Assembly (NCBI GenBank): GCA_020853795.1
Contig: JADYYF010000075.1
Coordinates: 1-36,025, forward strand
Direction of reading: 5' to 3'
Length of the DNA stretch: 36,025 nt
From: Candidatus Zixiibacteriota bacterium
Lineage (GTDB): Bacteria > Zixibacteria > MSB-5A5 > CAIYYT01
Part shown: positions 19,108 through 34,732 of the stretch, piece after piece
Layout: every line of letters starts with the position of its first letter
Position numbering within the stretch: the stretch's first letter is position 1
The notes under the pieces: model-generated
What the model saw: the letters and a program-made list of their open reading frames with translations, nothing else
Database searches by the model: none
Told to the model about the DNA's origin: nothing
Program-made: the position numbers and the translations under genes

Positions 19108-19368
19108 CTACTGCGGCTGCGCTTTTTTGTTGAGCATTTTCGCCAAACGGCTTTTCTTGCGGGAAGCGGTATTCTTGTGCATGACATTGCGCTTAACCGC
19201 TTTGTCGAGCAGGGAAGTCAACTCCGAATACGACTCGGCGTTCGCGCCCGGCCCCTGCTTCACGGCCTTGATGGCCGACCGCAATTCCGATTTCACCGCG
19301 CGGTTGCGCTCGCGCGCCACCAATGATTGCTTGTGCCGTTTGACGGCGGACTTATGACGTTTAGCCAA
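19108..19368 (-). CDS. rpsT: 30S ribosomal protein S20
   Basis: 86 residues, the usual size. Lys/Arg-rich helices bind 16S rRNA during early 30S assembly. Signatures are MAKRHKSAVKR at the start, VKSELRSAIKAV in the middle and KRNVMHKNTASRKKSRL near the end. The start codon is TTG (minus strand, 19368-19366), supported by GGAGGA 8 bases upstream and by exact fit to the S20 N-terminus. E. coli rpsT also starts with UUG, and there the weak start is part of its autoregulation. The gene has its own promoter and a strong terminator and is divergent from murJ. Confidence 0.96.
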   Translation of the reverse strand: MAKRHKSAVKRHKQSLVARERNRAVKSELRSAIKAVKQGPGANAESYSELTSLLDKAVKRNVMHKNTASRKKSRLAKMLNKKAQPQ

Positions 19369-19405
19369 TTCTCTGTTCCTCCAGGGTCCTTAACATCAAA
19401 GCCTG

Positions 19406-19435
19406 ATAATATAGGCTTCCGGCGATTCTTGTCAA
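19406..19435 (-). promoter_or_regulatory. Strong sigma-70-type promoter of rpsT
   Basis: On the minus strand, a perfect TTGACA (19435-19430) precedes TATATT (16-bp spacing, 19413-19408) or TATTAT (18-bp spacing, 19411-19406), each five of six matches. The start codon is about 40 bases downstream. A weaker plus-strand pair (TTAACA at 19390, TATAGG at 19412) overlaps it and could serve murJ. Confidence 0.75.
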
Positions 19436-19468
19436 TTGGAAACTGACGCCCCCGAAAAAGGCAGCCTG

Positions 19469-21016
19469 ATGCGCTCGGCCGGCATCGTCTCCGCCGCCAC
19501 CCTCATTTCCCGGGTGCTGGGACTGGTACGCGAACAGGTTACCGCCTATTTGTTCGGTGCCGGCGATCTGGTTGATGCCTTCAAGTCCGCCTTTCGGATC
19601 CCCAACCTCCTGCGCGACATGTTTGCGGAAGGCGCCCTTTCCGCTGGTTTCGTCCCGCTCTTCACTCAGAAGCTCCGTTCCGGCGGCCGCGAGGAAGCCA
19701 TCCGCTTCGCTGGTCTGGTTTTTGGCGCTCTCACTGCCGTGGTCTCGGCGGTCGTGATCTTTATGATCGCCGTCACGCCGCAGATCGCCACTGTCATCGC
19801 CGAGGGCTTCGAAAGCGTTCCCGGCAAGCTGGATGCCACGATCGCCATGGCGCGCGTCATGATGCCGTTTCTGCTCCTGGTCTCGCTCGCGGCCATGCTG
19901 ATGGGCGTCCTCAATTCCCTCGGCAAATTCTTCATCCCGGCGCTGGCGCCCGCACTGATGAACGTCGGCATGATCATCTGCTCGATCGTTCTTGCGCCCT
20001 TCGTTGACCCGCCCGTGATGAGTCTGGCGATCGGCGTCCTCGTCGGCGGCGCCATGCAATTTTTCATTCAATACCTGGCGCTGAAAAAAATCGGTTTTCG
20101 TTTCCCGCTGATCTTCGATCTGGCCAATCCCGACCTGTATCGACTCCTGCTCTTGATCCTGCCGACCGCCGTTGGTCTGGCCGCCACGCAGATCAATGTT
20201 GCCGTCATCACCCGCATTGCCTCCGGCGATTCCGGCGCGGTTTCGTATCTCGATTACGCCTTTCGCTTGCTGCATTTGCCGCTGGGGCTCTTTGCGATCG
20301 CCATCGCGACCGTGGCGCTGCCGCGGCTTTCCGGTGAAGCCGCCGCCGGGAATGACGCCGAATTCGGCCGCATCCATTCCAGCGCGCTGCGTCTCGGCCT
20401 GTTCCTCAGCCTGCCCGGCACGGTCCTGATGATCCTGCTCGCGCACGAAATCTGCGCCGCCGTCTATCAGTATGGCGCCTTCACCGCCAGTGATGCCGTC
20501 AACACCGGCCGCGCGCTGGCGATGTACGGCATCGGCCTGCCGTTCTTCACGCTGGTGCGCATCTCCGTGCCGGCTTTCTATGCCATGCGCGATACCCGCA
20601 CGCCGGCGCTGGTCTCGATCCTGAGTGTCGCCATCAATATCGTCCTCTGCTTCCAACTGCAGGGTCGCCTCGGTTTTGCCGGACTGGCGTTGGCGGCTTC
20701 GCTTGCCGGCCTCGCCAACTTCGCCCTGCTCTCCTTCTTGCTGCACCGCCGTACCGGCCTGGCACATGACGCCGCCTTCTACGGTGCGCTGCTCAAGATC
20801 GCCGCGGCCGCCGCCGCCATGGGCGCCGCCGTCTGGGCAACGCGGGAATTCGTCCTTCGGGAACTGATCAAAAGTGATTTGCATCGGCTGCTGCAAGTTG
20901 TCATCCTCTGTGCGGTGGCGGCGGCGGTGTTCGTTCTGATGTGCAAAATTCTTAAACTCGAGGAGTGGACGCGCCTGTGGGGCGCGGTTAATCGGAAGCT
21001 GTCTCGTCGCAGTTAA
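19469..21016 (+). CDS. murJ: Lipid II flippase MurJ
   Basis: 515 residues of a polytopic membrane protein (about 14 helices) of the MOP superfamily, which flips lipid II across the inner membrane for peptidoglycan synthesis. Family signatures are SAATLISRVLGLVREQ, FKSAFRIPNLLRDMFAEGALSAGFVPLF, and YLDYAFRLLHLPLGLFAIAIATVALPRLS. I chose ATG 19469 since it gives the standard MurJ N-terminus and has AAAGGCAG a few bases upstream. A TTG at 19436 is in frame but abuts the rpsT -35 box and lacks a ribosome site. The comEC-like gene follows after 12 bp, with its ribosome site starting inside the murJ stop codon. Confidence 0.93.
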   Translation: MRSAGIVSAATLISRVLGLVREQVTAYLFGAGDLVDAFKSAFRIPNLLRDMFAEGALSAGFVPLFTQKLRSGGREEAIRFAGLVFGALTAVVSAVVIFMIAVTPQIATVIAEGFESVPGKLDATIAMARVMMPFLLLVSLAAMLMGVLNSLGKFFIPALAPALMNVGMIICSIVLAPFVDPPVMSLAIGVLVGGAMQFFIQYLALKKIGFRFPLIFDLANPDLYRLLLLILPTAVGLAATQINVAVITRIASGDSGAVSYLDYAFRLLHLPLGLFAIAIATVALPRLSGEAAAGNDAEFGRIHSSALRLGLFLSLPGTVLMILLAHEICAAVYQYGAFTASDAVNTGRALAMYGIGLPFFTLVRISVPAFYAMRDTRTPALVSILSVAINIVLCFQLQGRLGFAGLALAASLAGLANFALLSFLLHRRTGLAHDAAFYGALLKIAAAAAAMGAAVWATREFVLRELIKSDLHRLLQVVILCAVAAAVFVLMCKILKLEEWTRLWGAVNRKLSRRS

Positions 21017-21028
21017 AGGAGGCCCAAC

Positions 21029-23221
21029 ATGCGCGCGCCCGCGCTCCATGCTCTGCTGCTCTTTGTGGTCGGCATCCTGCTGGCCGCCGCCGTCGAAATC
21101 CCGTCACTGGCCTATCTCGGGGTGGCGCTGCTGTCCACCGGCGCGGCTTTGGTTTACACACTTGTCGAACGCTTGATCCTTAGCCGCATTACTCTGGCCG
21201 TCGCGCTGGTCGCCTGCGGCGGCTTCCTGACGCGGCAGCAACTGAGCGACTTTCCCTCCAATCACATCTCGCACTTCACCGAGCTGGGCGGCAAAGCCCA
21301 TATCATCGGCGTCGTCGCCGACGAACCCGACATTCGCCCGACCCGCACCTACCTCGTGGTTGCCGCTGAGTCCCTCAGCTATCGCGATCGAACGATCCCG
21401 GTCTCCGGTCGTCTGCGCGTGCGTATCAACGAACCGACCACCGCGTTCAATTATAAGGATCGCGTGGCTTTTGGCGGTTTCATCGGAACTCCCAGCGCCG
21501 CCCGCAATCCCGGCGCCTTTGATTACCGCCACTATTTGGGCAGCCGCGGTATTCATGCTGTCTGCTATCTCGCCGCCGACGATCGCGTCGAGCTGCTTGC
21601 TTCCGGTGCCGGCGAGCCCTTTATCCGCTCGATTGTCGTGCCGGTGCGCGACTACATCATTCGCACTTATGAACGCTACCTGAGTGTCGAGCACGCTGCG
21701 CTCTTGCGCGGTTTCTTGATCGGTGACGTTCGTTTCATTCCCGAGTCCGTCCACAACCGCTTCCAGGACACCGGCACCCTGCACGTGCTGGCCGCTTCCG
21801 GTTCGAATGTCGGCTATGTTCTCGCCACGATCTTCCTGATCCTGCGACCGTTGCGCTTGCGCCGACCCTATCGCTACTTGCCCGCGCTCGTCGGCGTGGT
21901 CATTTTCTCCTTTCTCGCCTTCAATCAACCCTCCGTCGTCCGCGCTTCCGTGATGGCGATCGTCGCCTTGGTCGGCATGATGGCGCACCGCGACAATAAT
22001 TGGCTCAACTCGGTCAGTGTTGCCGGCCTGATTATCCTCGCCTTTCGCCCGCTGTACCTGTTTGATCTCGGCACGCAATTGTCTTTTGCCGCCGCGATCG
22101 CTCTGATTCTCTTCATGCCGGCCTGCGAACCGTGGCTGCCGCAAGGGAAGTCGTGGCCCGTCAAACTCGCCCGCTACCTGCTTATTCTCCTTCTCGGCAG
22201 CATCATTGCCCAGCTCGGTGTGGTGCCGATCCTGCTCCATAACTTCCATACTGTGCCGCTGGTAAGCTTTCTGGCCAATCTCGTGATCGTCCCGCTTGTC
22301 GGCATCATCACCATGCTTGGTATCATCCTTATTTTTCTCTCGCCGATTACATTCGTTGCAACCGTTGTCGGTGCCGCCCTCAATCATGCCATGGACTTCC
22401 TCGGCTCGGCGCTGACAGTTTTCGACAGCCTGCCGATCCCGCCGCTGCGTCTCGGCGCGCCGTCTCTGTCGATGATCTTTGCATACTACTTGACTCTTCT
22501 TCTGCTGCTGGCGCTTCTCAAGAAAAGTAAGTCCGCCGTTGCCTTCGTCTGGCTGCTTCTGATTGCCCTCAACCTCGGCCTCTGGAGCGCCGCGATCGGT
22601 GGAGAAGCCGCCCAGTCGCGGGTAACTTTCCTCGATGCCGCCAAACTGCCGACGCTCGTCGTCGAGACTCCCGGCCACGCTCCAACCTTGATCAACGCCG
22701 GCACGGTCGAACGCGGATTCGACGCCGGTGAGGCGATCGTCCTGCCGTTCCTGCGCTATCGCGGCATCACGCAGGTGCAGCACGCGTACGTCACGAGCAC
22801 CGAGTCGCACGCCAGGGACGCCCTTGCTTCCGTTCTGTGCGGCTTGTATCGGCGCTCGCCGATCCCGATCATTGAGCCGCGTGACCCCATCATCCGCCTC
22901 GAATTCGACTCACTCCGCTTTTTGCTCATTACCGCCAATCTTCCTGTGCAACAATTGCACAAGTTCGTTGAACGGGTCGATGTTCTCGGCTTGGACTGGC
23001 GGCTTCTGAACAATCCGGCCACCGGCGATTTCGTCCGTCGCCTGCAGCCAGCCATCGTCGTAATCCTCAACTATTTCAGCCGTTACGGCGGTGAGGCTGC
23101 GCTCACGTCGTTCCGTCTCGCCCACCCGCATTGTCGTGTCTGGAGTACCTTTGAATCCGGCGCCCTTCAATTGATTGTCGCTCACGGTACCGTCCGGGTA
23201 TTGCCGATGGCCAATACTTAG
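21029..23221 (+). CDS. comEC: ComEC/Rec2-family DNA channel protein with degenerate C-terminal MBL domain
   Basis: 730 residues. ComEC forms the inner-membrane channel for single-stranded DNA in natural transformation. The N-terminus has membrane helices and a DUF4131-like OB region (VSGRLRVRINEP, GFIGTPSAARNPGAFDYRHYL). The competence domain spans about residues 200-490: LLRGFLIGD, FQDTGTLHVLAASGSNVG, NQPSVVRASVMA and FDLGTQLSFAAAIAL are strong signatures. The C-terminal 200 residues align with the metallo-beta-lactamase domain, but the metal motifs are gone: FLDAAKLPT for FLDVGQGDA, LINAGT for LIDGG, and VTSTESHARDA for the LTHPDADHIGG-type site. It may transport without nuclease action or have another function. 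AAAGGAGG, overlapping the murJ stop, gives a firm start. Confidence 0.88.
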   Translation: MRAPALHALLLFVVGILLAAAVEIPSLAYLGVALLSTGAALVYTLVERLILSRITLAVALVACGGFLTRQQLSDFPSNHISHFTELGGKAHIIGVVADEPDIRPTRTYLVVAAESLSYRDRTIPVSGRLRVRINEPTTAFNYKDRVAFGGFIGTPSAARNPGAFDYRHYLGSRGIHAVCYLAADDRVELLASGAGEPFIRSIVVPVRDYIIRTYERYLSVEHAALLRGFLIGDVRFIPESVHNRFQDTGTLHVLAASGSNVGYVLATIFLILRPLRLRRPYRYLPALVGVVIFSFLAFNQPSVVRASVMAIVALVGMMAHRDNNWLNSVSVAGLIILAFRPLYLFDLGTQLSFAAAIALILFMPACEPWLPQGKSWPVKLARYLLILLLGSIIAQLGVVPILLHNFHTVPLVSFLANLVIVPLVGIITMLGIILIFLSPITFVATVVGAALNHAMDFLGSALTVFDSLPIPPLRLGAPSLSMIFAYYLTLLLLLALLKKSKSAVAFVWLLLIALNLGLWSAAIGGEAAQSRVTFLDAAKLPTLVVETPGHAPTLINAGTVERGFDAGEAIVLPFLRYRGITQVQHAYVTSTESHARDALASVLCGLYRRSPIPIIEPRDPIIRLEFDSLRFLLITANLPVQQLHKFVERVDVLGLDWRLLNNPATGDFVRRLQPAIVVILNYFSRYGGEAALTSFRLAHPHCRVWSTFESGALQLIVAHGTVRVLPMANT

Positions 23222-23379: not shown

Positions 23380-24570
23380 ATGAGTTTTACCGGCAATCTC
23401 CAAACGGTGGCGTTTCCCGATTTGCTCCAGTTGTTCTCTGCGGGCAAGAAAACCGGCACCGTAACCATCATTCGCGGCAATATCCGCAAAGAGATTGTCT
23501 TCAAGGAAGGCAACATCATCAGCGCCAGCTCGCAGGATGCGGAAGAGGACTACCTCGGCCAAATCGTGCTCAAGAGCGGCCGCATCACCAAGACTGACCT
23601 CCAGCGCGCCGTCTATATGCACAAGACGTCGGGCAAGAAGATCGGCCAAGTCCTGGTTGAGATGAAGCTGCTGAACCGCGAAGAACTCGGCCTCCTTCTC
23701 AAACAGCAGGTGGAAGAGATCATCTACAACCTTTTCAGTTGGAAAGAGGGCGAGTTCATTTTTAAGGAAGGCCAGCTGCCCGCCTCGCGCGAAGGTCTCG
23801 TTGAACTGAACACCATGAACATCATCATGGAAGGCACGCGCCGCATCGACGAGTGGGTCGAAATCCAGAAGGTGATGCCATCCGACCACCAGATTCTACG
23901 TGTCGCCGGTACGCCGCAGATCAAGTCCGACGAAGTCACCATCTCGCTCGACGAATTCCGCGTCCTGACTTTGATCGACGGCACCCGTACCGTGCAGGAC
24001 ATCCTCTCGCAGTCGCCGCTCGGCGATTTCGCCACCTCGCGCGCCGTCTATAAGCTCCTGCTCGGCAAGCTGGTGGAAGTCGCCGGCGCCAAGGAAGCGG
24101 AAGTGGCCGACCCGCGCGAAGAGGACTCGCTCTTCTGGCTGTTGTTGCGCGTCTACGCCGCCGCGTTCAGCACCGTCCAGCGTACGCTCGAAAAGAAACT
24201 CGGCACCGAGAACGAGAAGGTGCAGGTGACCCTCGCCAATTTCCGCAAGGGCATCTGGCAGTACTTCAACGGTGTCAGTCACGCCGATTTCCCGACGAAT
24301 TTCGAAGCCCTCAAACGCGCGCTGGCCAAGACACCGAAGGAAACCCGCACGCTGAAACTGATCAGCGGCTTGAACCAGATTCTCGAAGAACAGCTCGCCT
24401 ACGTCTACAACTACCTCGGCATCGAAATCCGCAAGCAGGTCGCGGCCGATATCAAGAAGGAAATCGCCCTGCCGCTGGCCGAGCGCCGCGAAATCGACAA
24501 GAAGTACGACGTCGGCAACGAACTGTACCGGATCCTGAAGGAAGTGAAAGTGACCAAGGAGGTCCTGTGA
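23380..24570 (+). CDS. DUF4388 (PatA-type) domain protein, first gene of the Mgl/pilus cluster
   Basis: 396 residues. The N-terminus (GNLQTVAFPDLLQLFSAGKK, then TGTVTI and EIVFKEGNIISASS) is the DUF4388 domain, found in bacterial signalling proteins, often with response-regulator or GTPase modules. Residues 70-140 form a second unit (KKIGQVLVEMKLLNREELGL, then LFSWKEGEFIFKEG). The rest is helical with EISLDEFRVLTLIDG-like winged segments and a charged C-terminal part. It has no membrane helix. It opens a run of ten genes in one direction with gaps of at most 42 bp, ending with pilC. DUF4388 proteins are plausible partners of Mgl-type GTPases, but the function here is inferred from context. 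The start at 23380 (ATG) lacks a strong ribosome site. Confidence 0.8.
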   Translation: MSFTGNLQTVAFPDLLQLFSAGKKTGTVTIIRGNIRKEIVFKEGNIISASSQDAEEDYLGQIVLKSGRITKTDLQRAVYMHKTSGKKIGQVLVEMKLLNREELGLLLKQQVEEIIYNLFSWKEGEFIFKEGQLPASREGLVELNTMNIIMEGTRRIDEWVEIQKVMPSDHQILRVAGTPQIKSDEVTISLDEFRVLTLIDGTRTVQDILSQSPLGDFATSRAVYKLLLGKLVEVAGAKEAEVADPREEDSLFWLLLRVYAAAFSTVQRTLEKKLGTENEKVQVTLANFRKGIWQYFNGVSHADFPTNFEALKRALAKTPKETRTLKLISGLNQILEEQLAYVYNYLGIEIRKQVAADIKKEIALPLAERREIDKKYDVGNELYRILKEVKVTKEVL

Positions 24571-24944: not shown

Positions 24945-24965
24945 CCCCAATCCGTGAAGGTCTCT

Positions 24966-25832
24966 ATGATGGAATCAGCAAGTCTGGCAGAGCGGATCGA
25001 AAAGTGCGAGCGGATTCTCAAGGAGAATTCGAACTCCCAGGTGTTCGCTGCGCTCGCCGACGCTTACCGGGCTAACGGCGATCTCGACCAGGCGTTCCGC
25101 GTCTGTCGGCAAGGCCTGCGCGTCCATCCGACTTATGGGCCCGGCCACCTGGTGATGGCTCGCATCAGCTTCGAGCGCAAAATGTTCGATTGGGCCGAAC
25201 AGGAACTGGCCGAAGCCGTCGCCCTCGACGGCGAAACCCGCGCTACCTCGCAACTCCGCGTCGAAATCCAGATCGCCAAAAGCAACTTCGGCGAAGCGGA
25301 ATTGGAGATCAAGAAACTCCGTGCCACCGGCACGAACCCGCTCCTGATTCAGGACCTGCAGCAGCGCCTGGAAAAAGCCAAGAAGGAAGCGCGCCGCCGC
25401 CGCAACGAGCAGGCGCCCGCCGTCGGCTTTGCCGCCCCGACCTCCTCGCTGCCGCCGTCGCCGCCGACCAAAGTGCAGGAACCGCCGCTGACCTTAAGCC
25501 AGATGATGGATTGTGTCAGCGACTTCCCCAATGTCACCAGCGTCGTCTGCGCCAATCACGACGGCACTGCCGTCGATCACCGCGGCGCGCCGGCGCAGTC
25601 CCCCGGGGAAATCGCCGCCTTCGGCATCGAAATGTGCCGCAATACGCAGACCGACGGCGCCCGGCAGGTGCTGGGCGAAGCTCAACAAATCGTCGTGGAA
25701 ACTCAGGACGCCACCATCGTGATCGTGCGCCTCAGCCGGTACGATCTCGTCCTGATGTGTGATAAGGATGTCAACCTGGGCTCGATGCGTCTCAAGCTGG
25801 ATGAGATCATCGACCGCCTCCGGATTGAATAG
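24966..25832 (+). CDS. TPR protein with C-terminal roadblock/LC7 domain
   Basis: 288 residues. Residues about 10-120 hold three TPR-like helical hairpins (VFAALADAYRANGDLDQAF, GHLVMARISFERKMFDWAE, LRVEIQIAKSNFGEAELE). A charged helix and a Pro-rich linker (about 150-172) follow. Residues about 175-285 resemble a roadblock/LC7 domain: VTSVVCANHDGTAVDHRG, then IVVETQDATIVIVRLSRYDL and a final LDEIIDRL helix. Roadblock domains dimerise and bind small Ras-like GTPases in bacteria and eukaryotes. The ATG at 24966 is taken with GAAGG just upstream; an adjacent ATG at 24969 is also possible. It sits four genes before mglA and may act as a scaffold for it. Confidence 0.8.
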   Translation: MMESASLAERIEKCERILKENSNSQVFAALADAYRANGDLDQAFRVCRQGLRVHPTYGPGHLVMARISFERKMFDWAEQELAEAVALDGETRATSQLRVEIQIAKSNFGEAELEIKKLRATGTNPLLIQDLQQRLEKAKKEARRRRNEQAPAVGFAAPTSSLPPSPPTKVQEPPLTLSQMMDCVSDFPNVTSVVCANHDGTAVDHRGAPAQSPGEIAAFGIEMCRNTQTDGARQVLGEAQQIVVETQDATIVIVRLSRYDLVLMCDKDVNLGSMRLKLDEIIDRLRIE

Positions 25833-25847
25833 AGTTGAGAGGATGCT

Positions 25848-26798
25848 ATGGCTTTGACGATCAGGGATGTTCGGCACTTGGTTCTGTTCCTGCTGATTCT
25901 CGCGGCACTGCCGATGCTGGTCTATCCCAATACCCTCGGCTTCGGGATTGGGTTGACCGGTTGGTCTTACGTCGCCGGCGAGCTGCTGTTCTTTCTGGCG
26001 GTCAGCATGATCTTCAACCGCGATACCTCGCTCACCCGTGGCGCTGCCGCCGCCGTCTTAATCTGGGCCGGCCGCATCGCCATGTCCGGCGTCTTCTGCC
26101 TCTTCTTGATGGGCATGGAGCGCGTGGCGCCGGCCGCCGCTTGGAGCGATGCGTATCTCGAATTTCCGCCGGCCGTCTACCTGTTTACACTCACCGCTCC
26201 GTTTGTCTTCAACTCGACCGTGAGGTCCATCATGGCTAAAAAACGCCGCGTCCGCAAGCACACCAGCGAACGCATCATCATCGACGGCGCCGCGCGCGCC
26301 ACGACGATGACGACGCCGTCCGCCCCGGTGCCGCGCGACTATTCCGTCACCGCCGTACCGCAACCGCGACCGACGGCGGAATTCCTCGAACGCACGTTCC
26401 AGCACGCCGTCCAGCACGTCGGCGAATATTCCGGCGTCCTCTGCGCCATGCTGATCGACGGGGAGGGCCTGCCGGTTGCCGGCTGGAGCCGCGGCCGCTA
26501 TGACCAGGAAATGTGGAGCGCGCTCGCGCGCAAAATCGTCGACGATGTCAACCGCACCTGCGCCCAGGGCGGCACCGTCCATCCCCAAACCCTCGAGTTC
26601 AAAACCGGCCAGGAGCGCTTCTATCTCCAACGCGTCGCCGATATGTGGCTCCTCTCCATCGCTGACGCCGCCTCGGACGAACTCGAAAAAATCCGCGTGC
26701 ACCAGGCGGTCGATATGGTGCTGCGCCATCTTCAGGATCGTTACAGAAATCTCTATATGAGCGAAGCAGGGAGAAGTTATGCGGGAAGTACTGTCTGA
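25848..26798 (+). CDS. Membrane protein: four helices plus cytoplasmic roadblock-like domain
   Basis: 316 residues. Four hydrophobic segments at about 9-26, 37-56, 64-90 and 104-124 are followed by a basic stretch (KKRRVRKH, about 130), which by the positive-inside rule puts the C-terminal part in the cytoplasm. After a low-complexity linker (about 147-180), residues about 182-305 form a roadblock-like alpha/beta domain: YSGVLCAMLIDGEGLPVAGW, RFYLQRVADMWLLSIAD and a final helix. This would bring a GTPase-binding domain to the inner membrane. The start has GAGAGGA upstream, 15 bp after the TPR-roadblock gene. Its 3' end overlaps the next gene by 20 bp. I know no named family with this layout. 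Confidence 0.72.
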   Translation: MALTIRDVRHLVLFLLILAALPMLVYPNTLGFGIGLTGWSYVAGELLFFLAVSMIFNRDTSLTRGAAAAVLIWAGRIAMSGVFCLFLMGMERVAPAAAWSDAYLEFPPAVYLFTLTAPFVFNSTVRSIMAKKRRVRKHTSERIIIDGAARATTMTTPSAPVPRDYSVTAVPQPRPTAEFLERTFQHAVQHVGEYSGVLCAMLIDGEGLPVAGWSRGRYDQEMWSALARKIVDDVNRTCAQGGTVHPQTLEFKTGQERFYLQRVADMWLLSIADAASDELEKIRVHQAVDMVLRHLQDRYRNLYMSEAGRSYAGSTV

Positions 26799-27114
26799 AC
26801 TGAATAAGACCTCCGGGATCACCGGCAGCATGCTCGTCGGGCACGACGGCATCGTCATCGCCGCCGATCTCAACAGCAAATTCGACAACGAAACCATCGG
26901 CGCCCTGGCCGGGTCGATCAGTTCCACCGTGGCCAAGAGCCTCGAACGGCTCCAGCAGACGCCGCTGAAACAACTGACCATCGAAGCGGATGAGGCCAAA
27001 ATGTTCATCGCGGCCACCCCGGTCGGCTATCTCGTAGTGACCGCCGAACCGCGCGTCAACATCGGTCTCGTTCGTCTCGAAATCAAGAATGCGATCACGC
27101 AGATCAGTCTGTAA
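26779..27114 (+). CDS. Stand-alone roadblock/LC7 domain protein
   Basis: 111 residues, essentially one roadblock/LC7 domain. ITGSMLVGHDGIVIAADLNS gives the two strands and turn of the fold, followed by a helix with GALAGSISSTVAKSLERL, then LTIEADEAKMFIAATP and GYLVVTAEPRVNIGLVRLEI. Such proteins form homodimers and bind Ras-like GTPases. The start lies inside the preceding gene (20-bp overlap) with AGGGAGAAG upstream, so the two are translationally coupled. mglA follows after 31 bp. It is shorter than the MglB at 28238 and lacks its C-terminal tail, so it may be a heterodimer partner or a separate regulator. Confidence 0.88.
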   Translation: MREVLSELNKTSGITGSMLVGHDGIVIAADLNSKFDNETIGALAGSISSTVAKSLERLQQTPLKQLTIEADEAKMFIAATPVGYLVVTAEPRVNIGLVRLEIKNAITQISL

Positions 27115-27125
27115 GGCCACGGCAG

Positions 27126-27145
27126 GGAGACTCTAGGAGACTCTA
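27126..27145 (+). promoter_or_regulatory. Duplicated Shine-Dalgarno sequence before mglA
   Basis: Two perfect copies of GGAGACTCTA stand in tandem (27126-27135 and 27136-27145), the second ending at the ATG. The near copy gives AGGAG at about 6 bases spacing. The far copy could load a standby ribosome. Confidence 0.6.
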
Positions 27146-28222
27146 ATGGTATCAATCAACTACGCGAGCCGGGAAGTCAGCTGCAAGATTGTCTACTACG
27201 GCCCCGGCTTGTCGGGCAAGACGACCAACCTGCAATATGTCCACGCCAAGGTGCCGAAGAAAACCCGCGGCGATCTCATCAGTCTGGCCACGGATGCCGA
27301 TCGCACGCTCTATTTCGACTTTCTCCCGATCAACATCGGCGCCATTAACGGCTTCGCCACCAAGTTCCAGCTCTATACCGTGCCGGGACAAGTCTTCTAT
27401 AACGCGACCCGCAAGCTCGTGCTCCGCGGCGTCGACGGCGTCGTCTTCGTCGCCGATTCCCAGCGCTCCAAGAAAGACGAGAACATCGAATCGCTGAATA
27501 ACCTCAAGGAGAACCTCGTCGAATACGGCTACGACCTCAACACCTTGCCGATCGTGCTCCAGTACAACAAGCGCGATTTGCCGGAGGTGATGTCGGTCGC
27601 CGAACTGCAGGCCGATCTCAACTGGAATAACCTGCCGTTCTTCGAGGCCTCCGCCGTTAAGGGTGTCGGCGTCTTCGATACGCTGAAACTGATTACCAAG
27701 CTGGTGCTCAATAAAGCCAAGAAGGGCGATGACTCGTCCACCGCCGGCGCCGAGGATGCCGAACCTGCGACCGCCTATCCGGCCGGCCCGCAGTCGTCCG
27801 GCCCGCCATCACCGGCCGCCCCGGAGCCGGAACCGGCCTACGAACGCGTCGCCGCAACGGCCGTCGCGCCCCCCGCGACCGAAACGGTGCCGCGCCGCGT
27901 TGAGGTGCAGGCACCGCCCGAAGAGGAAGAGTGGGCCCTGGCGCGCCCGGCGGCGACCGCCGCTGCGGCAGTTGCGCCCAAGCCGCACAAGCCGACCATC
28001 GCGGAAATCGAATCGCATCTGCAGCCCATCGGCAATGACGATTTCAACGCCTTGAAAATGGATAAACCCGCGGCTGCCAGAGCTGCCGCGGAAGCGCCTG
28101 CGACCGACTACGCCGAAACCTTCGAGGTGCCCAAGGTCGTCGGCATGCAGCGCAGCACCCGCGTGAAAAAGAAAAAGAAAGTATTCTTCTTATTCCGCTG
28201 GTTCAGCCGGGATAAGGATTAG
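27146..28222 (+). CDS. mglA: MglA-type Ras-like GTPase with long C-terminal tail
   Basis: 358 residues; typical MglA has about 195. Residues 1-194 match Myxococcus MglA closely: P-loop GPGLSGKTTN (19-28), the intrinsic arginine finger Arg53 in DADRTL, TVPGQ (78-82, with the unusual Thr78 and Gln82), VVFVADSQ, NKRD (141-144) and SAVKG (169-173). MglA-GTP sets the leading pole and drives pilus-based and gliding motility; MglB acts as its GAP. Residues about 195-335 form an Ala/Pro/Glu-rich tail with a short conserved-looking helix (PTIAEIESHLQPIGNDDF). The end has five lysines (341-345), then VFFLFRWF and SRDKD, a possible membrane anchor like the polybasic tails of eukaryotic Ras. The mglB gene follows after 15 bp; in Myxococcus the order is reversed. 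Confidence 0.93.
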   Translation: MVSINYASREVSCKIVYYGPGLSGKTTNLQYVHAKVPKKTRGDLISLATDADRTLYFDFLPINIGAINGFATKFQLYTVPGQVFYNATRKLVLRGVDGVVFVADSQRSKKDENIESLNNLKENLVEYGYDLNTLPIVLQYNKRDLPEVMSVAELQADLNWNNLPFFEASAVKGVGVFDTLKLITKLVLNKAKKGDDSSTAGAEDAEPATAYPAGPQSSGPPSPAAPEPEPAYERVAATAVAPPATETVPRRVEVQAPPEEEEWALARPAATAAAAVAPKPHKPTIAEIESHLQPIGNDDFNALKMDKPAAARAAAEAPATDYAETFEVPKVVGMQRSTRVKKKKKVFFLFRWFSRDKD

Positions 28223-28237: not shown

Positions 28238-28726
28238 GTGGCTGGCGACAAACTCATTGTCTACTGGGACGACACCGAGAAAATCGATGCGGTGATGACC
28301 CGGCTTCTGAAAGGTTCGGAAGCTAAGTGCGCCCTTCTGGTCGATAAGGATGGTCATCTTATCGCCCGACACGGCTTCACCCAATCCCTCGACACCACCG
28401 CGCTCTCGGCGCTCATGGCGGGCAGCTTTGCCTCCACCGCCGAAATCGCCAAGCTGGTGGGTGAACCGGAATTCTCCGTCCTCTTCCACCAGGGACGCAA
28501 AGACCATATTCACATGGGCATCGTCGGCGACCGCTCGATTTTGGCGGTCATCTTCGACGATCGCACCACCATCGGCATGGTTCGGCTCTACGCCAAGGAA
28601 GCGGCCGAAGAATTGCAGAAAATCTTCGAAACCGTCCTGCGCAAGGTCAACAGCACCGACCAGGGCCTGTCCGAAGAATTCACCGCCTCGGCGGAAAATA
28701 AACTGGAGGATATCTTCCGCGAATAG
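28238..28726 (+). CDS. mglB: MglB, roadblock-type GTPase-activating partner of MglA
   Basis: 162 residues, close to the 159 of Myxococcus MglB and similar throughout: LLVDKDGHLIARHG, SLDTTALSALMAGSFAST, IAKLVGEPEFSVLFHQG, then ILAVIFDDRTTIGMVRLYAK. The C-terminal tail ends in ENKLEDIFRE, matching the short acidic end helix of MglB proteins, which in Myxococcus affects nucleotide exchange on MglA. The start codon is GTG at 28238, supported by AGGAGG (28225-28230) 7 bases away. It follows mglA by 15 bp and precedes pilB by 38 bp. Confidence 0.92.
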   Translation: MAGDKLIVYWDDTEKIDAVMTRLLKGSEAKCALLVDKDGHLIARHGFTQSLDTTALSALMAGSFASTAEIAKLVGEPEFSVLFHQGRKDHIHMGIVGDRSILAVIFDDRTTIGMVRLYAKEAAEELQKIFETVLRKVNSTDQGLSEEFTASAENKLEDIFRE

Positions 28727-28764: not shown

Positions 28765-30462
28765 ATGCCGAGCTCTAAAGAATTAGGGACAATGCTCGTC
28801 GACGCCGGCAAGATCACCGGCGACCAGCTCACCAAGGCCCTCGCCCTGGTGGAGCAGGGCAAGGGCCGCATCGAACAGGTCCTCGTGCAGATCGGCGCTG
28901 TGCCGGATGAAGAAGATATCACCAACTTCATCGGCAAACAGCTCAACATCGGCGCGATCCGCCTCTCCGATCTCGAGCTCAATCCCGATATCGTCAAGCT
29001 GATCCCCAACGACATTGCCCGCAAGTTCAATGTCATTGCGGTCAGCAAACTCGGCAAAACCCTGGTCGTCGCAATCAGCGATCCCAACAATATCTATGTG
29101 CTCGATGCGATCAAATTCATCACCGGCTGCACCGTGCAACCGGTTATCTCGCCCGAACCCGCCATCCAGAAGGCGGTCGAGCACTACTATTCCAATTCCT
29201 CGCAGTACACCGAAATTCTCAAGGGCCTCGAAGATTCCGAAATCGAGGTCATTACCGCGGGCGACGATGATATCAACGTCATGGAGCTGCAATCGGCGGT
29301 GCAGGACAAACCGCTGGTCAAGCTCGTCGACTCGATTATCGCCGAAGCCGTCCGCAAGGGCGCCTCGGATATTCACATCGAAACCTATGAGAAGCGGCTG
29401 CGCCTGCGCTACCGCATCGACGGCGATTTGATCGAAATGGCGCCGCTCCCCTTCAAGTACCGCGCGGCCATCGTCAGCCGCGTCAAGATCATGGCCGATC
29501 TCGATATTTCCGAGCGCCGTTTACCCCAGGACGGACGCATCAAAATCAAAATCAGCGACCGCGCGATTGACCTCCGCGTATCGGTCCTGCCGACCATCTT
29601 CGGCGAAAAAGTCGTGATGCGTATTCTCGACCCGAAAGCCCTGATGCACGATCTCACCCATCTCGGCTTCCCGGAACTCTCGCTCAAGAAATTCGACAAG
29701 GCGATTCACCTGCCGTACGGCATTATCCTCGTCACCGGCCCGACCGGTTCCGGTAAGACGACGACCCTGTACTCGGCGCTCAAGGCAATCAACACCGTCG
29801 ACGTCAACATCATGACCGCCGAAGACCCGGTCGAATTCAACTTCGAAGGCATCAACCAGGTCGCGGTCAAGCCCGATATCGGCCTGACCTTCGCCGCCGC
29901 GCTCCGGTCGTTCCTGCGCCAGGACCCGGATATCGTCATGGTCGGCGAAATCCGCGACGGCGAAACCGCCGAAATCGCCATCCGCGCTTCGCTCACCGGG
30001 CACCTGGTTTTCAGCACCCTGCACACGAACGATGCGCCCTCGTCGATCAACCGTCTGATCGACATGGGCATTCCCAATTACCTCGTCGCTTCTGCCGCCA
30101 AGTTGATCATGGCCCAGCGTATGGTGCGCAAGATCTGTAAGCGCTGTCGCGAAGAGGTCAAGACTGAATCGGAAGTCCTCTTGCGCCTGGGTGTGCCCGA
30201 GGCCGAAATCAAGGGCTTCAAGGTCTACGAGGGCAAAGGCTGCTCCGAATGCAACAACACCGGTCTCGCCGGACGAACCGGATTATTCGAAGTGATGGAA
30301 ATCACTCCCGAAGTCGAGCGCCTCATCCTCGAGAATGCGCCGACCCCGGACATTCAGGCCCAGGCCATCAAGGAAGGCATGCATACGCTGCGCATGGCCG
30401 GCATCGAAAAAGTTAAACTCGGCGTCACGACCATCGAACAGGTCCTGGGCGAGACGTCATAG
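28765..30462 (+). CDS. pilB: Type IV pilus extension ATPase
   Basis: 565 residues, normal for PilB/GspE. PilB powers pilus assembly at the inner membrane. Residues 1-150 form the N-terminal GspE/MshEN-type domain (LVDAGKITGDQLTKAL, LNIGAIRLSDLELNPD). The Walker A motif GPTGSGKTTT begins at residue 325, followed by the Asp box (AEDPVEFN), Walker B (DPDIVMVGEIRD) and the His box (GHLVFSTLHTND). A tetracysteine zinc site has two CxxC pairs (ICKRCREE and GCSECNNTG), typical of extension and not retraction ATPases. The short distance to mglB (38 bp) suggests co-transcription with the Mgl module. AGGAAGG lies before the start. Confidence 0.95.
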   Translation: MPSSKELGTMLVDAGKITGDQLTKALALVEQGKGRIEQVLVQIGAVPDEEDITNFIGKQLNIGAIRLSDLELNPDIVKLIPNDIARKFNVIAVSKLGKTLVVAISDPNNIYVLDAIKFITGCTVQPVISPEPAIQKAVEHYYSNSSQYTEILKGLEDSEIEVITAGDDDINVMELQSAVQDKPLVKLVDSIIAEAVRKGASDIHIETYEKRLRLRYRIDGDLIEMAPLPFKYRAAIVSRVKIMADLDISERRLPQDGRIKIKISDRAIDLRVSVLPTIFGEKVVMRILDPKALMHDLTHLGFPELSLKKFDKAIHLPYGIILVTGPTGSGKTTTLYSALKAINTVDVNIMTAEDPVEFNFEGINQVAVKPDIGLTFAAALRSFLRQDPDIVMVGEIRDGETAEIAIRASLTGHLVFSTLHTNDAPSSINRLIDMGIPNYLVASAAKLIMAQRMVRKICKRCREEVKTESEVLLRLGVPEAEIKGFKVYEGKGCSECNNTGLAGRTGLFEVMEITPEVERLILENAPTPDIQAQAIKEGMHTLRMAGIEKVKLGVTTIEQVLGETS

Positions 30463-30504: not shown

Positions 30505-31587
30505 ATGATTAACTTGCGCGAATTGCTCGAGATCCTGCTCGAACGGAAAGGCTCCGACCTGCACCTGTCGGTCGGCTCGCCGCCCCAGGTCCGCGTCGAC
30601 GGCCGCCTGATTCCACTCGACATGGACGTGCTGACGCCGGAAACCACCAAGAAGCTGGCCTACAGCATGATGTCCGAAAAGCAGAAACAGCGCTTCGAGG
30701 AAAACAACGAACTCGATATGTCGTTCGGCATCGAGAATATGAGCCGCTTCCGCGTCAACGTCTATATGCAGCGCGGCAATATCTCCGTCGCCCTGCGCCA
30801 GATTCCGTTCAAGGTGCCGACCTTCGAAGAACTCGGCATCGACAAAACCATCGTTGAATTCGCCAACGTTCCCAAAGGCCTTGTCCTGATCACCGGGCCG
30901 ACCGGTTCCGGTAAGTCGACGACCCTGGCGGCGCTGATCGACAAGATCAATCGCGAACGCAAGGCGCATATCCTGACCGTCGAAGATCCGATCGAATACT
31001 TGCACCGCCACCAAAGTTGTCTGGTCAACCAGCGCGAAGTCGGTGCCGATACCCGCTCCTTTGCGGCGGCGCTCAAGTACGCGCTGCGGCAGGACCCCGA
31101 CGTTGTCCTGATCGGCGAAATGCGCGACCTCGAGACCGTGTCCGAGGCGCTCAACATTTCCGAGACCGGCCATCTGACCTTCGCCACCTTGCACACCAAC
31201 TCCTGCGCGGAAACCATCAACCGTGTCATCGACGTCTTCCCGGTTAACCAGCAGGAGCAGATTCGCGTGACGCTCTCCTTCGTGCTGCAAGGTGTCGTGT
31301 CGCAGCAGCTGGTGCCGCGCATCGGCGGCGGCCGCGTCCTGGCCACCGAAATCATGGTCTGCACGCCCGCCATCCGCGCCCTGATTCGCGACGATAAGAT
31401 TCACCAGATCTATAGCATGCTGCAATCCGGCCAGAAGTACGGCATGAAGACGATGAACATGTCGCTGGCCGAACTCTACCTGGCGCGTAAGATCACGATC
31501 GGCGAGGCGATGTCCCGTTCGTCCAACGTGCAGGAACTCAACGAAATCCTCTCGCGCGTGCAGACGGTCGCGGAAGTGCATCGTTAA
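30505..31587 (+). CDS. pilT: Type IV pilus retraction ATPase
   Basis: 360 residues, the usual PilT size. PilT depolymerises the pilus and gives twitching force. KGSDLHLSVGSPPQVRVDG is the N-terminal PAS-like domain. Walker A GPTGSGKSTT starts at residue 131, then VEDPIEYLH, QDPDVVLIGEMRD and GHLTFATLHTNS. The C-terminal AIRALIRDDKIHQI corresponds to the AIRNLIRE motif that marks retraction ATPases. There is no tetracysteine zinc site. It follows pilB by 42 bp with GAGGA before the start. Having both motors next to mglAB suggests direct control of extension versus retraction by the GTPase module. Confidence 0.95.
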   Translation: MINLRELLEILLERKGSDLHLSVGSPPQVRVDGRLIPLDMDVLTPETTKKLAYSMMSEKQKQRFEENNELDMSFGIENMSRFRVNVYMQRGNISVALRQIPFKVPTFEELGIDKTIVEFANVPKGLVLITGPTGSGKSTTLAALIDKINRERKAHILTVEDPIEYLHRHQSCLVNQREVGADTRSFAAALKYALRQDPDVVLIGEMRDLETVSEALNISETGHLTFATLHTNSCAETINRVIDVFPVNQQEQIRVTLSFVLQGVVSQQLVPRIGGGRVLATEIMVCTPAIRALIRDDKIHQIYSMLQSGQKYGMKTMNMSLAELYLARKITIGEAMSRSSNVQELNEILSRVQTVAEVHR

Positions 31588-31608: not shown

Positions 31609-32808
31609 ATGCCGGTTTTTGAATACAAAGGCAAGACGGTCACCGGTTCGCAGGTCGAAGGCGAACTGAAAGTCAAAGACCGCGCCGAACTCGATCGCAT
31701 TCTGCGCCGCAACAAGATCCTGGTCGACAAGGTTTCCAAGAAGCCGTCGCAGATCCAGATCAAGATCGGCTCGGGCATTAAGAAAGTGCACATCTCCCGC
31801 TTCACGCGCCAGTTCGCGACCATGATCGGCGCCGGTCTCCCGATGGTGCAGTGCCTGGATATTCTCTCCAAGCAGATGGATTCCCAGGAATTCTGCAAGA
31901 TCATCGGCGACATCAAGGACGCCGTCTCATCCGGTTCGACGCTCTCGGAGGCGATGGGCAAGCATAAAAAGGTCTTCGACGAGCTCTACGTTAACATGGT
32001 CGAGGCCGGCGAAATGGGCGGCGCCCTCGACACGATTCTCGTCCGCCTCGCCAACTATCGCGAAAAAGCCGACGCGCTGACCCGCAAGGTCAAGGGCGCT
32101 CTGGTCTATCCGGCGATTGTGTCGCTGGTCGCGACCGGCGTGACGATCGCGATGTTGACCTTTATCGTGCCGATCTTCGCCAAGATGTTCGCCAATCTCG
32201 GCGCCGAGCTGCCCGGCCCGACCCAGTTCGTGCTCGGCATCTCGCATTTTTTGCAGAACTATTTCCTGGTGATCCTCGGCGCGCTGGTACTGCTCTTCGT
32301 CGGCTTCAAGATCATGATGCGCAACGAAGAAGGCCGCTTCCAGTTCGACAAGTTTATGCTCAGGACCCCGGTCTTCGGCGACCTGATCCGCAAATCCGCG
32401 GTTGCGCGCTTCACCCGCACCCTCGGCACGCTGATCCAGTCCGGCGTCACCATTCTCGACGCCCTCGAAATCACCGCCAAAACCGCGGGTAACAAGGTAC
32501 TCCAGCGGGCGATCAAGAAATCGGTGCTGTCGATCGCCGAAGGCGATACCATCACCAACCCGCTGAAGGAATCGGGCGTGTTTCCGCCGATGGTGATCCA
32601 GATGATTGGCGTCGGTGAAAAAACTGGCGGTCTCGACGAAATGCTGTCCAAGATCGCCGACTTCTACGATGAGGAAGTTGATGCGGCTGTCAGCGCCCTG
32701 ACCTCGATGATCGAACCGATCATCATCGTCTTTATGGGTATCGTGATCGGCGGCATCCTGATCGCCATGTACTTGCCGATGTTCGACATTATTGGCAAGA
32801 TCAACTAA
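31609..32808 (+). CDS. pilC: Type IV pilus inner-membrane platform protein
   Basis: 399 residues of the GspF/PilC family. PilC is the inner-membrane platform that couples PilB and PilT to pilin movement. The first about 60 residues are cytoplasmic (FEYKGKTVTGSQVEGELKV). Two homologous GspF domains follow: FTRQFATMIGAGLPMVQCLD with GEMGGALDTILVRLANY, and FTRTLGTLIQSGVTILDALE with GEKTGGLDEMLSKIADFYDEEVD. Three membrane helices lie at about 166-190, 215-237 and 368-393. GGAGG precedes the start, 21 bp after pilT. A strong hairpin follows 31 bp after the stop. No pilin gene is in the window, so major and minor pilins must be elsewhere. Confidence 0.95.
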   Translation: MPVFEYKGKTVTGSQVEGELKVKDRAELDRILRRNKILVDKVSKKPSQIQIKIGSGIKKVHISRFTRQFATMIGAGLPMVQCLDILSKQMDSQEFCKIIGDIKDAVSSGSTLSEAMGKHKKVFDELYVNMVEAGEMGGALDTILVRLANYREKADALTRKVKGALVYPAIVSLVATGVTIAMLTFIVPIFAKMFANLGAELPGPTQFVLGISHFLQNYFLVILGALVLLFVGFKIMMRNEEGRFQFDKFMLRTPVFGDLIRKSAVARFTRTLGTLIQSGVTILDALEITAKTAGNKVLQRAIKKSVLSIAEGDTITNPLKESGVFPPMVIQMIGVGEKTGGLDEMLSKIADFYDEEVDAAVSALTSMIEPIIIVFMGIVIGGILIAMYLPMFDIIGKIN

Positions 32809-32839: not shown

Positions 32840-32871
32840 GCCACCTCCGCTTGAGCGGAGGTGGCTTCTTC
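32840..32871 (+). promoter_or_regulatory. Hairpin that contains the pilS Shine-Dalgarno; possible pilC terminator
   Basis: GCCACCTCCGC (32840-32850), loop TTGA, GCGGAGGTGGC (32855-32865) form a perfect 11-bp GC-rich stem, followed by TTCTTC and the pilS ATG at 32872. The right arm carries GGAGG (32857-32861), the only good ribosome site for pilS, so a folded hairpin would hide it. The T-poor tail makes it a weak terminator. Either partial termination or translational masking would lower kinase output relative to the pilus genes. Confidence 0.6.
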
Positions 32872-34626
32872 ATGACGATGAAACAGCGTAAGAAAAAGCT
32901 CAAGGAAGAGTTGCGCAGCTTCTGGTTTATCCCGCTGCGCCTCTCGATCTTCCTGTTGCTCTTCGGCGCCGTCGTCCTCAACGAAAGCACCCAGCGCCAG
33001 AATTTCTGGCCGTTCCTGCTTTACTCGCTGGCCACGCTGCTGTTCCTGCTCGTCATCGAGATCGACGCCCGCTTCTTCCGCCCCGGCTTCCTGCGGACAA
33101 TCATTTTCGTTCACTTCGCCTTCGAACTGCTCGCCGAGGGCGCCATTATCCAGAGCGCCGGCCAGTTGACGGTGCAGTATTCCATCCTGTTCCTGCTCAC
33201 CATCGTCTCGGCCAGCCTGATCTACAAGCTCGTCGGGACGATCACCATCGCCACGCTGGCGTCGCTGACCTACGCCTTCACCTCCAGCCTCAATCGGCTC
33301 TTTGAGAAAGGCGAGGCCATCTCCTTCGACACCTTCCGCATCACCGTGCAGGGCAATGACGACGTCTTCTACGCCATCTTCATCCACGTCTGCACCTTCT
33401 ACCTGGTCGCCTTTATCTCCGGCTTCCTCGCGCAAAAACTTCGCGCCAAGGAAGGCGAACTGACGCACGCTTCGGAAGAACTTGAGCGCGTTCAGCTCGA
33501 CACGGACGACATTCTGCAAAATCTCCATTCCGGTCTCGTCACCGTCGATGCCGCCGGCCGCATCGTCTATTTCAACCGCGCCGCCGAGAATATCCTCGGC
33601 TATCGCGGCATCGATGTGAAAGGGAAGAGCTTTCTGGAGGTCTTCAATCACTCCATGCCCGACTTTTGCGAGCGCGTGCTTTCGGTACTGAAGCTGGCCA
33701 AGCCGAATGTGCGCACCGAGGTGGAAATCGTCGGCAAGAATGGCCGGCGCCTGCCGCTCGGCCTCTCCGCCTCGATCCTCGGCGATGAACGCATCGGCCT
33801 CCGCGGCGTCGTCGCCGTCTTCCAGGACCTCACCGCCGCCAAGGAGATGGAACAAGCGCTGATCAAGGCGGACCGCCTCGCCGCCGTCGGTGAACTTTCG
33901 GCCCGCATCGCCCACGAAATTCGTAACCCGCTGGCCTCGATCTCCGGCTCGGTGGAAGTCCTCAAGAACGAAATCGCCTTGCAGGACGACAACGCCCGCC
34001 TGATGCAGTTGATCGTGAAAGAATCGGAGCGACTGTCGCGAATACTCAACGATTTCCTCAGCTACGCCCGCACCGGTCCCGGTCGCTCGGCCAAGATCGA
34101 AATTGTCTCGGTCGCCGGCGAGGTCGTCGAACTGCTGCGTCATGACCCGCGCGTGCCGGCCGGCGTCAAGTTCGAATTCGTCACCGCGCAACCGACCGAC
34201 TACGTCATCGGCGACGAAGATCAGATCCGCCAGGTCTTGCTCAATATCCTGACCAATGCCGTCGATGCCGTCGCCCCCGATGACGGCCGCATCATCGTGA
34301 AAGTCGGCCTCCACGCCGAGCGGGTGGAATTTCCCGCTGGCGACTGGCTCAGCCTCGTCATCACCGACAACGGCTGCGGTATCAGCCACGACGTCAAAGA
34401 CAAACTCTTTGAACCGTTTTTTTCCCGCAAGAAGGGCGGCACCGGTCTTGGCTTGGCGATCGTTAAACGCTGCGTCGACAACATGAAAGGCCACATCGAA
34501 ATCGAATCGGCGCCCGGCGCCGGTGCCAAGTTCATCCTCTATCTCCGCCGCTACCAGCTTGCCCGTGACGAAGACCTCGCTGCACCCGCTCCCGCCGAGA
34601 CTCGCGCCACCGCCCTGCGATCATAG
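32872..34626 (+). CDS. pilS: PilS-like sensor histidine kinase
   Basis: 584 residues. The ATG at 32872 is 10 bases after GGAGG; an in-frame TTG at 32851 lies within the hairpin and is unlikely. The first about 190 residues have several membrane helices (six in a typical PilS). A coiled-coil linker (KEGELTHASEELERVQ) leads to a PAS domain (about residues 210-320: ILQNLHSGLVTVDAAGRIVY, FNRAAENILGY). Kinase core: H-box with His348 in IAHEIRNPLAS, N-box NILTNAVDAV, G1 ITDNGCGIS, F-box FEPFFSRKKGG and G2 GTGLGLAIVK. PilS with its partner PilR controls pilin transcription through sigma-54. No response regulator follows; the next gene is unrelated. Confidence 0.85.
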   Translation: MTMKQRKKKLKEELRSFWFIPLRLSIFLLLFGAVVLNESTQRQNFWPFLLYSLATLLFLLVIEIDARFFRPGFLRTIIFVHFAFELLAEGAIIQSAGQLTVQYSILFLLTIVSASLIYKLVGTITIATLASLTYAFTSSLNRLFEKGEAISFDTFRITVQGNDDVFYAIFIHVCTFYLVAFISGFLAQKLRAKEGELTHASEELERVQLDTDDILQNLHSGLVTVDAAGRIVYFNRAAENILGYRGIDVKGKSFLEVFNHSMPDFCERVLSVLKLAKPNVRTEVEIVGKNGRRLPLGLSASILGDERIGLRGVVAVFQDLTAAKEMEQALIKADRLAAVGELSARIAHEIRNPLASISGSVEVLKNEIALQDDNARLMQLIVKESERLSRILNDFLSYARTGPGRSAKIEIVSVAGEVVELLRHDPRVPAGVKFEFVTAQPTDYVIGDEDQIRQVLLNILTNAVDAVAPDDGRIIVKVGLHAERVEFPAGDWLSLVITDNGCGISHDVKDKLFEPFFSRKKGGTGLGLAIVKRCVDNMKGHIEIESAPGAGAKFILYLRRYQLARDEDLAAPAPAETRATALRS

Positions 34627-34668: not shown

Positions 34669-34732
34669 ACTCTTCGCCGCCTCATACATTCCTCCCATTC
34701 GTATCCACGGCCGGACGTATCAATTGGAGACT

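Follow-up and report, generated by a model that had tools for sequence, protein, structure and literature searches.

The C-terminal metallo-beta-lactamase (MBL) domain of the ComEC channel, whose nuclease role was predicted in PMC5031224, is a Mn-dependent nuclease according to PMC8579336, which puts the ComECs without it at about half. Gain and loss of ComEC domains were surveyed in PMC6299819. In the Discussion of PMC8579336 it is considered that the pneumococcal domain may be inactive and kept as a guide, and the same paper names the fate of the strand without an active ComEC nuclease as an open question. PMC12455585 deals with the structure of ComEC, with ligand mutants and with a pin loop, and proposes a pin-loop role for the C-terminal domain in Legionella pneumophila. 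Here we describe a comEC-like gene of Candidatus Zixiibacteriota bacterium (assembly GCA_020853795.1, contig JADYYF010000075.1, positions 1 to 36,025 of the forward strand; this whole stretch of 36,025 nucleotides is called the window) whose C-terminal domain (CTD) has retained the predicted MBL fold and lost the metal ligands, together with the other sampled members of its phylum, the Zixibacteria. In the open literature, which was the scope of our search (subscription papers and preprints lying outside it), no paper was found on Zixibacteria and natural transformation or ComEC, nor on ComEC and pseudoenzymes.

The gene, its domains and the equivalents of the ComEC motifs are located in the window as follows.

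21029..23221, + strand, comEC-like gene, 730 amino acids (open reading frame, ORF; PF03772 177.6 bits against a cut-off of 23, PF13567 97.9 bits against 31.6)
21107..21583, + strand, DUF4131/OB-fold domain ahead of the channel, residues 27-185 (PF13567, E 6.7e-28)
21716..22522, + strand, Competence (channel) domain, residues 230-498 (PF03772, E 4.1e-52)
22613..23218, + strand, putative C-terminal pseudo-MBL domain without metal ligands, residues 529-730 (hhalign, AlphaFold2 model and 9ic4 fold match; no Pfam match)
22628..22654, + strand, FLDAAKLPT, equivalent of FLDVGQGDA, residues 534-542 (profile alignment)
22688..22705, + strand, LINAGT, equivalent of LIDGG, residues 554-559 (profile alignment)
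22793..22819, + strand, TSTESHARD at the place of HxHxDH, residues 589-597, with ligand positions S590, E592, H594 and A595 (alignment)
22919..22939, + strand, FLLITAN, equivalent of motif IV (TGD) (alignment)
22985..23008, + strand, LGLDWRLL, equivalent of motif III (HHGS) (alignment)
23069..23095, + strand, NYFSRYGGE, equivalent of motif V/pin loop 2 (NRFGHP), with the His gone and the Arg-aromatic tip retained (alignment)

The fold of the CTD was evaluated with a profile of 33 such domains from 12 Zixibacteria families, the window's included. Against a second profile, built from three ComEC MBL domains with intact motifs (one of the domains partial) of Bacteroidetes/Ignavibacteriae metagenome-assembled genomes (MAGs), it aligned end to end over 227 co-linear columns (hhalign probability 99.5, E 3.5e-23), and it also found the solved ComECs 30bt (E 1.9e-25) and 9ic4 (E 4.4e-25). 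The AlphaFold2 model of the window CTD has a pLDDT of 93.2 and a pTM of 0.90, and among solved structures it is most similar to 9ic4, a nuclease domain of ComEC (Z 19.9, rmsd 2.6, 195 residues aligned), followed by Pce (Z 15.6). The same fold match was given by the full-length model (pLDDT 86.9, Z 20.0), for which Foldseek/VIA listed the two domains MBL and OB and barely covered the channel. Pfam has no match in the C-terminal part of the window protein, and its Lactamase_B family recognizes 0/33 Zixibacteria CTDs versus 3/3 of the intact ComEC domains. Since profile alignment and predicted models both match the ComEC MBL domain, the window CTD is best described as a derived ComEC MBL domain with a predicted fold that has been retained. 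The original prediction had aligned this part of the protein with the ComEC MBL domain and had named structure prediction as a check; both now point to the same fold.

The metal site, by contrast with the intact domains, could not be found in the alignment. We scored seven ligand columns (in the second one D was accepted as well as H, and at motif III N as well as H), and the window protein, with S, E, H, A, R, N and G in these columns, scores 0/7. An intact set of ligands was looked for elsewhere in the window CTD and none was found, so that this domain, as far as its sequence tells, is without a metal site. The replacement of FLDVGQGDA, LIDGG and HxHxDH by FLDAAKLPT, LINAGT and TSTESHARD, which had been read from the sequence at the outset, is thus confirmed together with the loss of the metal motifs, and the proposed alignment with related ComECs revealed that the relatives share it.

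Among 132 Zixibacteria genomes, 121 gave a comEC match, and those without one were 11/132, or only 3/78 of the high-quality genomes. We excluded 13 of the 121 because the match was fragmentary or cut at a contig end (G013, G016, G020, G030, G045, G051, G066, G067, G078, G080, G083, G092 and G101), and five of the remaining 108 proteins were omitted from the ligand count for their short ORF (G035, G071, G099, G108 and G109). The resulting 103 proteins were aligned with 41 from outside, that is, from 39 outside-phylum genomes plus L188 and L190; the 39 are the best by E-value of the 75 matched among 81 genomes, and this set leans to well-scoring ComECs. Each of the 103 alignable Zixibacteria proteins has at most 3/7 ligands (45 score 0, 37 score 1, 17 score 2 and four score 3), against 15 outside proteins scoring 7, ten scoring 6, two scoring 5, one scoring 4 and 13 scoring 0-2; at least 5/7 ligands are therefore present in 27/41 outside ComECs versus 0/103 in Zixibacteria. 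The last His of HxHxDH is found in 0/103 Zixibacteria proteins versus 30/41 outside, and the first in 1/103. When the columns were slid out of register, the mean scores were 0.06-0.58 versus 0.81 in register for Zixibacteria, and 0.02-0.90 versus 4.49 for the outside set. A plain pattern search in the 108 proteins returned one match (G052), which scores at most 2 at the aligned ligand columns. It should be noted that the alignment is less certain in families f5-f8, where the CTD is most diverged.

The metal-less pseudo-MBL state has become fixed in the Zixibacteria sampled here. A tree of 93 rows was built on the OB and channel columns; its 52 Zixibacteria are grouped in a single clade (SH-aLRT 99), and the simplest reading is a single loss that preceded the divergence of the sampled Zixibacteria. 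Graded vestiges are still visible: members of f13 keep FLDVGQGNS or FLDVGQGSS and LIN[AS]GE, but have TDND or similar at HxHxDH, and the vestige in f2 reads ISGHESGLTGG. Families f2-f19 rule out a loss confined to the genus or family of the window; the original prediction was correct on the local loss and missed its extent. On the same tree at least 15 changes are required for a three-state character (intact, degenerate or no CTD), so that the scattered degenerate CTDs of other phyla, of 198-282 amino acids with 0-2/7 ligands (for example G203, G197, G164, G177, G146 and G194), are separate losses in single genomes. A CTD of at least 170 amino acids is present in 8/14 low-ligand ComECs among the 41 outside the phylum; loci with a CTD of about 200-280 amino acids and 0-2/7 ligands are L210, L212, L215, L223, L235 and L245. 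As separate observations, one Zixibacteria genome, G102, has two ComEC matches (C5:3618-5306 and C8:26504-28258; L019), and one TAA lies within the comEC match of G099 and of G109 (L035 and L050).

We also evaluated whether the domain is under selection, using 18 pairs more than 60% identical; rows recur between pairs, not all of which are independent. The dN/dS of the CTD is 0.108-0.325 in the 14/18 pairs with a finite estimate, and that of the channel is 0.046-0.193 in the 13 pairs where both estimates are finite. The dead CTD is constrained by purifying selection in these pairs, and its length is kept in Zixibacteria (143-277 amino acids, median 232); the kept length, the confident predicted fold and a dN/dS of 0.11-0.33 indicate that it is not debris. 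Gly711 (window numbering) is the sole invariant residue in the 33 CTDs and Asp536 is nearly so, and there is no conserved His. For the window's own family the sole pair close enough for dN/dS is the sister genus g2, in which comEC is broken in both MAGs (L004 and L006), by an in-frame TGA and by a 115-bp deletion with a frame shift. These lesions sit in the same transmembrane region, and because both halves keep a dN/dS of 0.12-0.18 on either side of them, they are either recent or assembly faults.

The host genome, a MAG of 3.56 Mb in 215 contigs and 99.9% complete, has one Competence-domain protein in a genome-wide search, that of the gene described here, and a Shine-Dalgarno-like AAGGAGG stands six bases 5' of its ATG. 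A full-length profile of 20 Zixibacteria ComECs matched solved full-length ComECs, the channel domain included (30bt over columns 14-759, E 7.9e-112), and the full-length profile also matched the solved OB domain 9iew (E 3.8e-14). The NCBIfam equivalog for ComEC/Rec2, TIGR00361, gave 142 bits, under its cut-off of 190.05, and its match does not reach beyond residue 584, a position within the MBL domain. The original prediction had recognized comEC and had described the interval 22600-23221, within which the motifs do lie; the gene itself is larger, and the type IV pilus cluster in the same window was missed. The neighboring genes are these.

19436..21016, + strand, murJ, upstream neighbor (PF03023, E 3.4e-112)
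23380..24570, + strand, DUF4388 protein, downstream neighbor (PF14332)
24954..28222, + strand, TPR protein, two roadblock/LC7-type proteins (the first under the Pfam cut-off) and a small GTPase (27146-28222; Arf/Ras families)
28238..28726, + strand, roadblock/LC7 protein
28765..30462, + strand, pilB (TIGR02538, 707.7 bits, above cut-off)
30505..31587, + strand, pilT (TIGR01420, 489.2 bits, above cut-off)
31609..32808, + strand, pilC (T2SSF; NF052606, 522 bits, under the cut-off of 700)
32851..34626, + strand, sensor histidine kinase with a PilS-like membrane domain (PF25323, PF00512, PF02518)

In the window pilB starts 5.5 kb downstream of comEC. Across the phylum both comEC and pilT were located in 105 genomes; they stand on different contigs in 32 and on the same contig in 73; in 69 of these 73, pilT is 2.7-9.1 kb downstream of comEC on the same strand. 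Directly upstream of comEC a MurJ-like cluster is found in 53/66 Zixibacteria loci with a neighbor, and directly downstream a DUF4388 protein in 60/66. In Zixibacteria a conserved cluster of type IV pilus genes includes comEC. The window's neighbor genes were matched beside comEC in 0/42 outside loci, a count of little weight, as the flanks available in most of them are only about 1-2.5 kb long. The position of the GTPase and roadblock genes, between comEC and the pilus motor genes, would suggest a polarity control common to both, the small GTPase at 27146-28222 being one that we take to be MglA-like. The ORF at 34724-36025, which runs off the end of the window, is presumably a thioredoxin-domain protein of the DUF255/YyaL type. 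Two antisense ORFs of 562 and 568 amino acids, at 19361-21049 (-) and 21104-22810 (-), lie opposite murJ and comEC and most probably result from the GC richness of the coding sequence.

Homologs of the other competence factors are also widespread. PilT-type ATPases were found in 132/132 Zixibacteria genomes, DprA homologs in 131/132 (the window genome included), ComEA-type helix-hairpin-helix (HhH) proteins in 120/132, of which 31 are above cut-off, the window genome among them, and ComF-type proteins in 117/132 including the window's, none being above NCBI's cut-off. The ComEA of the window genome has a hydrophobic N-terminus. The search of the full genome for ComEA, DprA and ComF, suggested when the gene was first noticed, has thus returned all three, with ComF under cut-off. 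The clustering with pil genes and the presence of PilT, ComEA, DprA and ComF homologs are the strongest reason for thinking that DNA uptake is likely kept, and they argue for its retention.

A separate nuclease was searched for among MBL proteins and in two further families. The window genome has seven PF00753 proteins, among which no ComEC-like MBL was recognized, two of them (L200 and L202) not being identified; the five with an HxHxDH-like motif we take to be of ordinary types, such as glyoxalase-, RNase J/beta-CASP- and UPF0173-like. The separate MBL nuclease that had been suggested as a check is accordingly missing among the five readable proteins of the seven. The EndA-type nuclease (Endonuclease_NS, PF01223) occurs in 14/132 Zixibacteria genomes, and none was found in the window genome or in its family f1, which rules out EndA as a general replacement. 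SNase (PF00565) is present in 109/132 genomes, in 69/78 of the better ones and in 8/14 controls. All 16 SNase ORFs that were fetched (L248-L263; L248 is from the window's own genome) have a strongly hydrophobic segment ahead of the nuclease domain, and a membrane anchor or lipobox was noted in each. They share a Cys-containing tail, like FHRPxC...SPCRNCKP, and the one tail tested shows a weak likeness to Ada_Zn_binding (E 0.079). No genomic link between SNase and comEC was found and nothing ties SNase to DNA uptake; as a separate nuclease the membrane-anchored SNase is the foremost candidate, but only a candidate. A split import machine, in which the MBL domain would be only a strand-parting wedge and strand degradation would have moved to the anchored SNase with its Cys-rich C-terminal tail, is a tentative proposal with the odds clearly against it.

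The reading that we favor, with a probability of about 0.6, sees the protein as a ComEC channel that imports DNA and has a folded pseudo-nuclease as its CTD, a non-catalytic lid or wedge, the second strand being removed elsewhere or displaced. The PilB/PilT pilus and ComEA would bring DNA in and the OB domain would bind it; the dead CTD, placed over the pore entrance, would part the strands and steer one into the channel, where ComF and DprA would take it over inside the cell. The second strand would be removed by another periplasmic nuclease, possibly the anchored SNase, or simply displaced; if DNA is taken up, some other means of disposing of it would be needed, because the CTD is without metal residues. 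Three outcomes had been offered originally. A channel working without its own nuclease is now the most likely, the metal site being lost; the use of a separate nuclease is possible, the anchored SNase being common in the phylum and without link to uptake; the end of DNA uptake is less favored in view of purifying selection, pilT linkage and ComEA, DprA and ComF, but comEC is broken in two g2 MAGs. Several observations weigh against this favored reading. The dN/dS of the CTD exceeds that of the channel in 13/13 pairs, and the constraint on the CTD is therefore relaxed relative to the channel. The Zixibacteria CTDs are for the most part acidic (median net charge -6, with +3 in the window), which gives no support to DNA binding; as an indicator of it, charge is uninformative or contrary. 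SNase is widespread in bacteria and missing from 23/132 Zixibacteria genomes, and we know of no Zixibacterium that is transformable. In L. pneumophila, as reported in PMC12455585, alanine changes of the metal ligands abolish transformation, so a dead domain needs compensation. The pin-loop proposal of the same paper would offer a role for the dead domain, a weak step: the window (SRY) retains the Arg-aromatic tip, as do 4/5 of f13 and 4/4 of f16, and yet it is present in only 20/103 Zixibacteria (17/41 outside families f3, f5-f8 and f11; shuffled background 0.088), so that the wedge idea is not general and pin-loop retention is unsupported as a general explanation.

The relaxed constraint would also fit a channel that no longer imports DNA and has drifted or is being lost, with the MBL domain as its most decayed part, as would the two different lesions in the g2 MAGs and the genomes without a comEC match; but the latter are few among high-quality genomes, the broken copies are MAG assemblies whose halves still evolve under constraint, and the low dN/dS of the channel, its residues invariant over 20 diverse proteins, the phylum-wide clustering with pil genes and a ComEA with hydrophobic N-terminus in the same genome make this doubtful. 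That the pseudo-MBL only parts the strands, with no dedicated nuclease and the other strand displaced into the periplasm, would agree with the scarcity of EndA, with the PF00753 results and with PMC8579336, where displacement is named as a possibility; this is unlikely, however, given the frequency of SNase and the hydrophobic anchor in all those fetched, other nuclease families lying outside the search. The CTD might instead still be an enzyme, binding metal through other residues or cutting without the classical site. Purifying selection on the domain and the few Zixibacteria proteins keeping up to 3/7 ligand-type residues, mostly a single Asp, speak for this, but with the HxHxDH histidines gone and no new conserved polar cluster visible in the 33 CTDs it is very unlikely. 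A sequencing or assembly error in the window copy, conceivable for a MAG in many contigs, is practically impossible and was ruled out, as 730 codons are open behind a ribosome-binding-like sequence and every alignable relative is in the same state.

With respect to Moorella glycerini ComEC (9ic4 and 30bt group) and B. subtilis ComEC, which consist of OB, channel and active MBL nuclease, the window protein has the same domain order and a CTD of the same predicted fold, but all seven metal ligands are gone. By Pfam it would score as one of the "DC" profile ComECs (DUF4131 and Competence, no Lactamase_B) of Pimentel and Zhang, as these are defined in PMC6299819; unlike what a bare DC label says, it has an MBL-fold domain that is invisible to Pfam. 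A label of "no Lactamase_B" can thus hide a pseudo-enzyme, and DC is no proof that the domain is missing. The Zixibacteria ComECs are a natural separation-of-function series, which asks what an MBL-type domain does besides cutting. A split machine with SNase, if true, would be a second EndA-like solution, reached through an unrelated nuclease and fixed for the whole phylum. The closest likeness is to S. pneumoniae ComEC, in which, according to the accounts in PMC5031224, PMC8579336 and PMC12455585, an MBL-like CTD is kept and thought inactive, as in the window. The pneumococcal domain has partial substitutions and is accompanied by the known membrane-bound EndA, whereas in Zixibacteria the site is erased phylum-wide and the EndA type is rare. 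The Zixibacteria state is a phylum-wide and more complete version of this precedent of a probably inactive MBL domain with EndA, with comEC lying among the genes of a type IV pilus.
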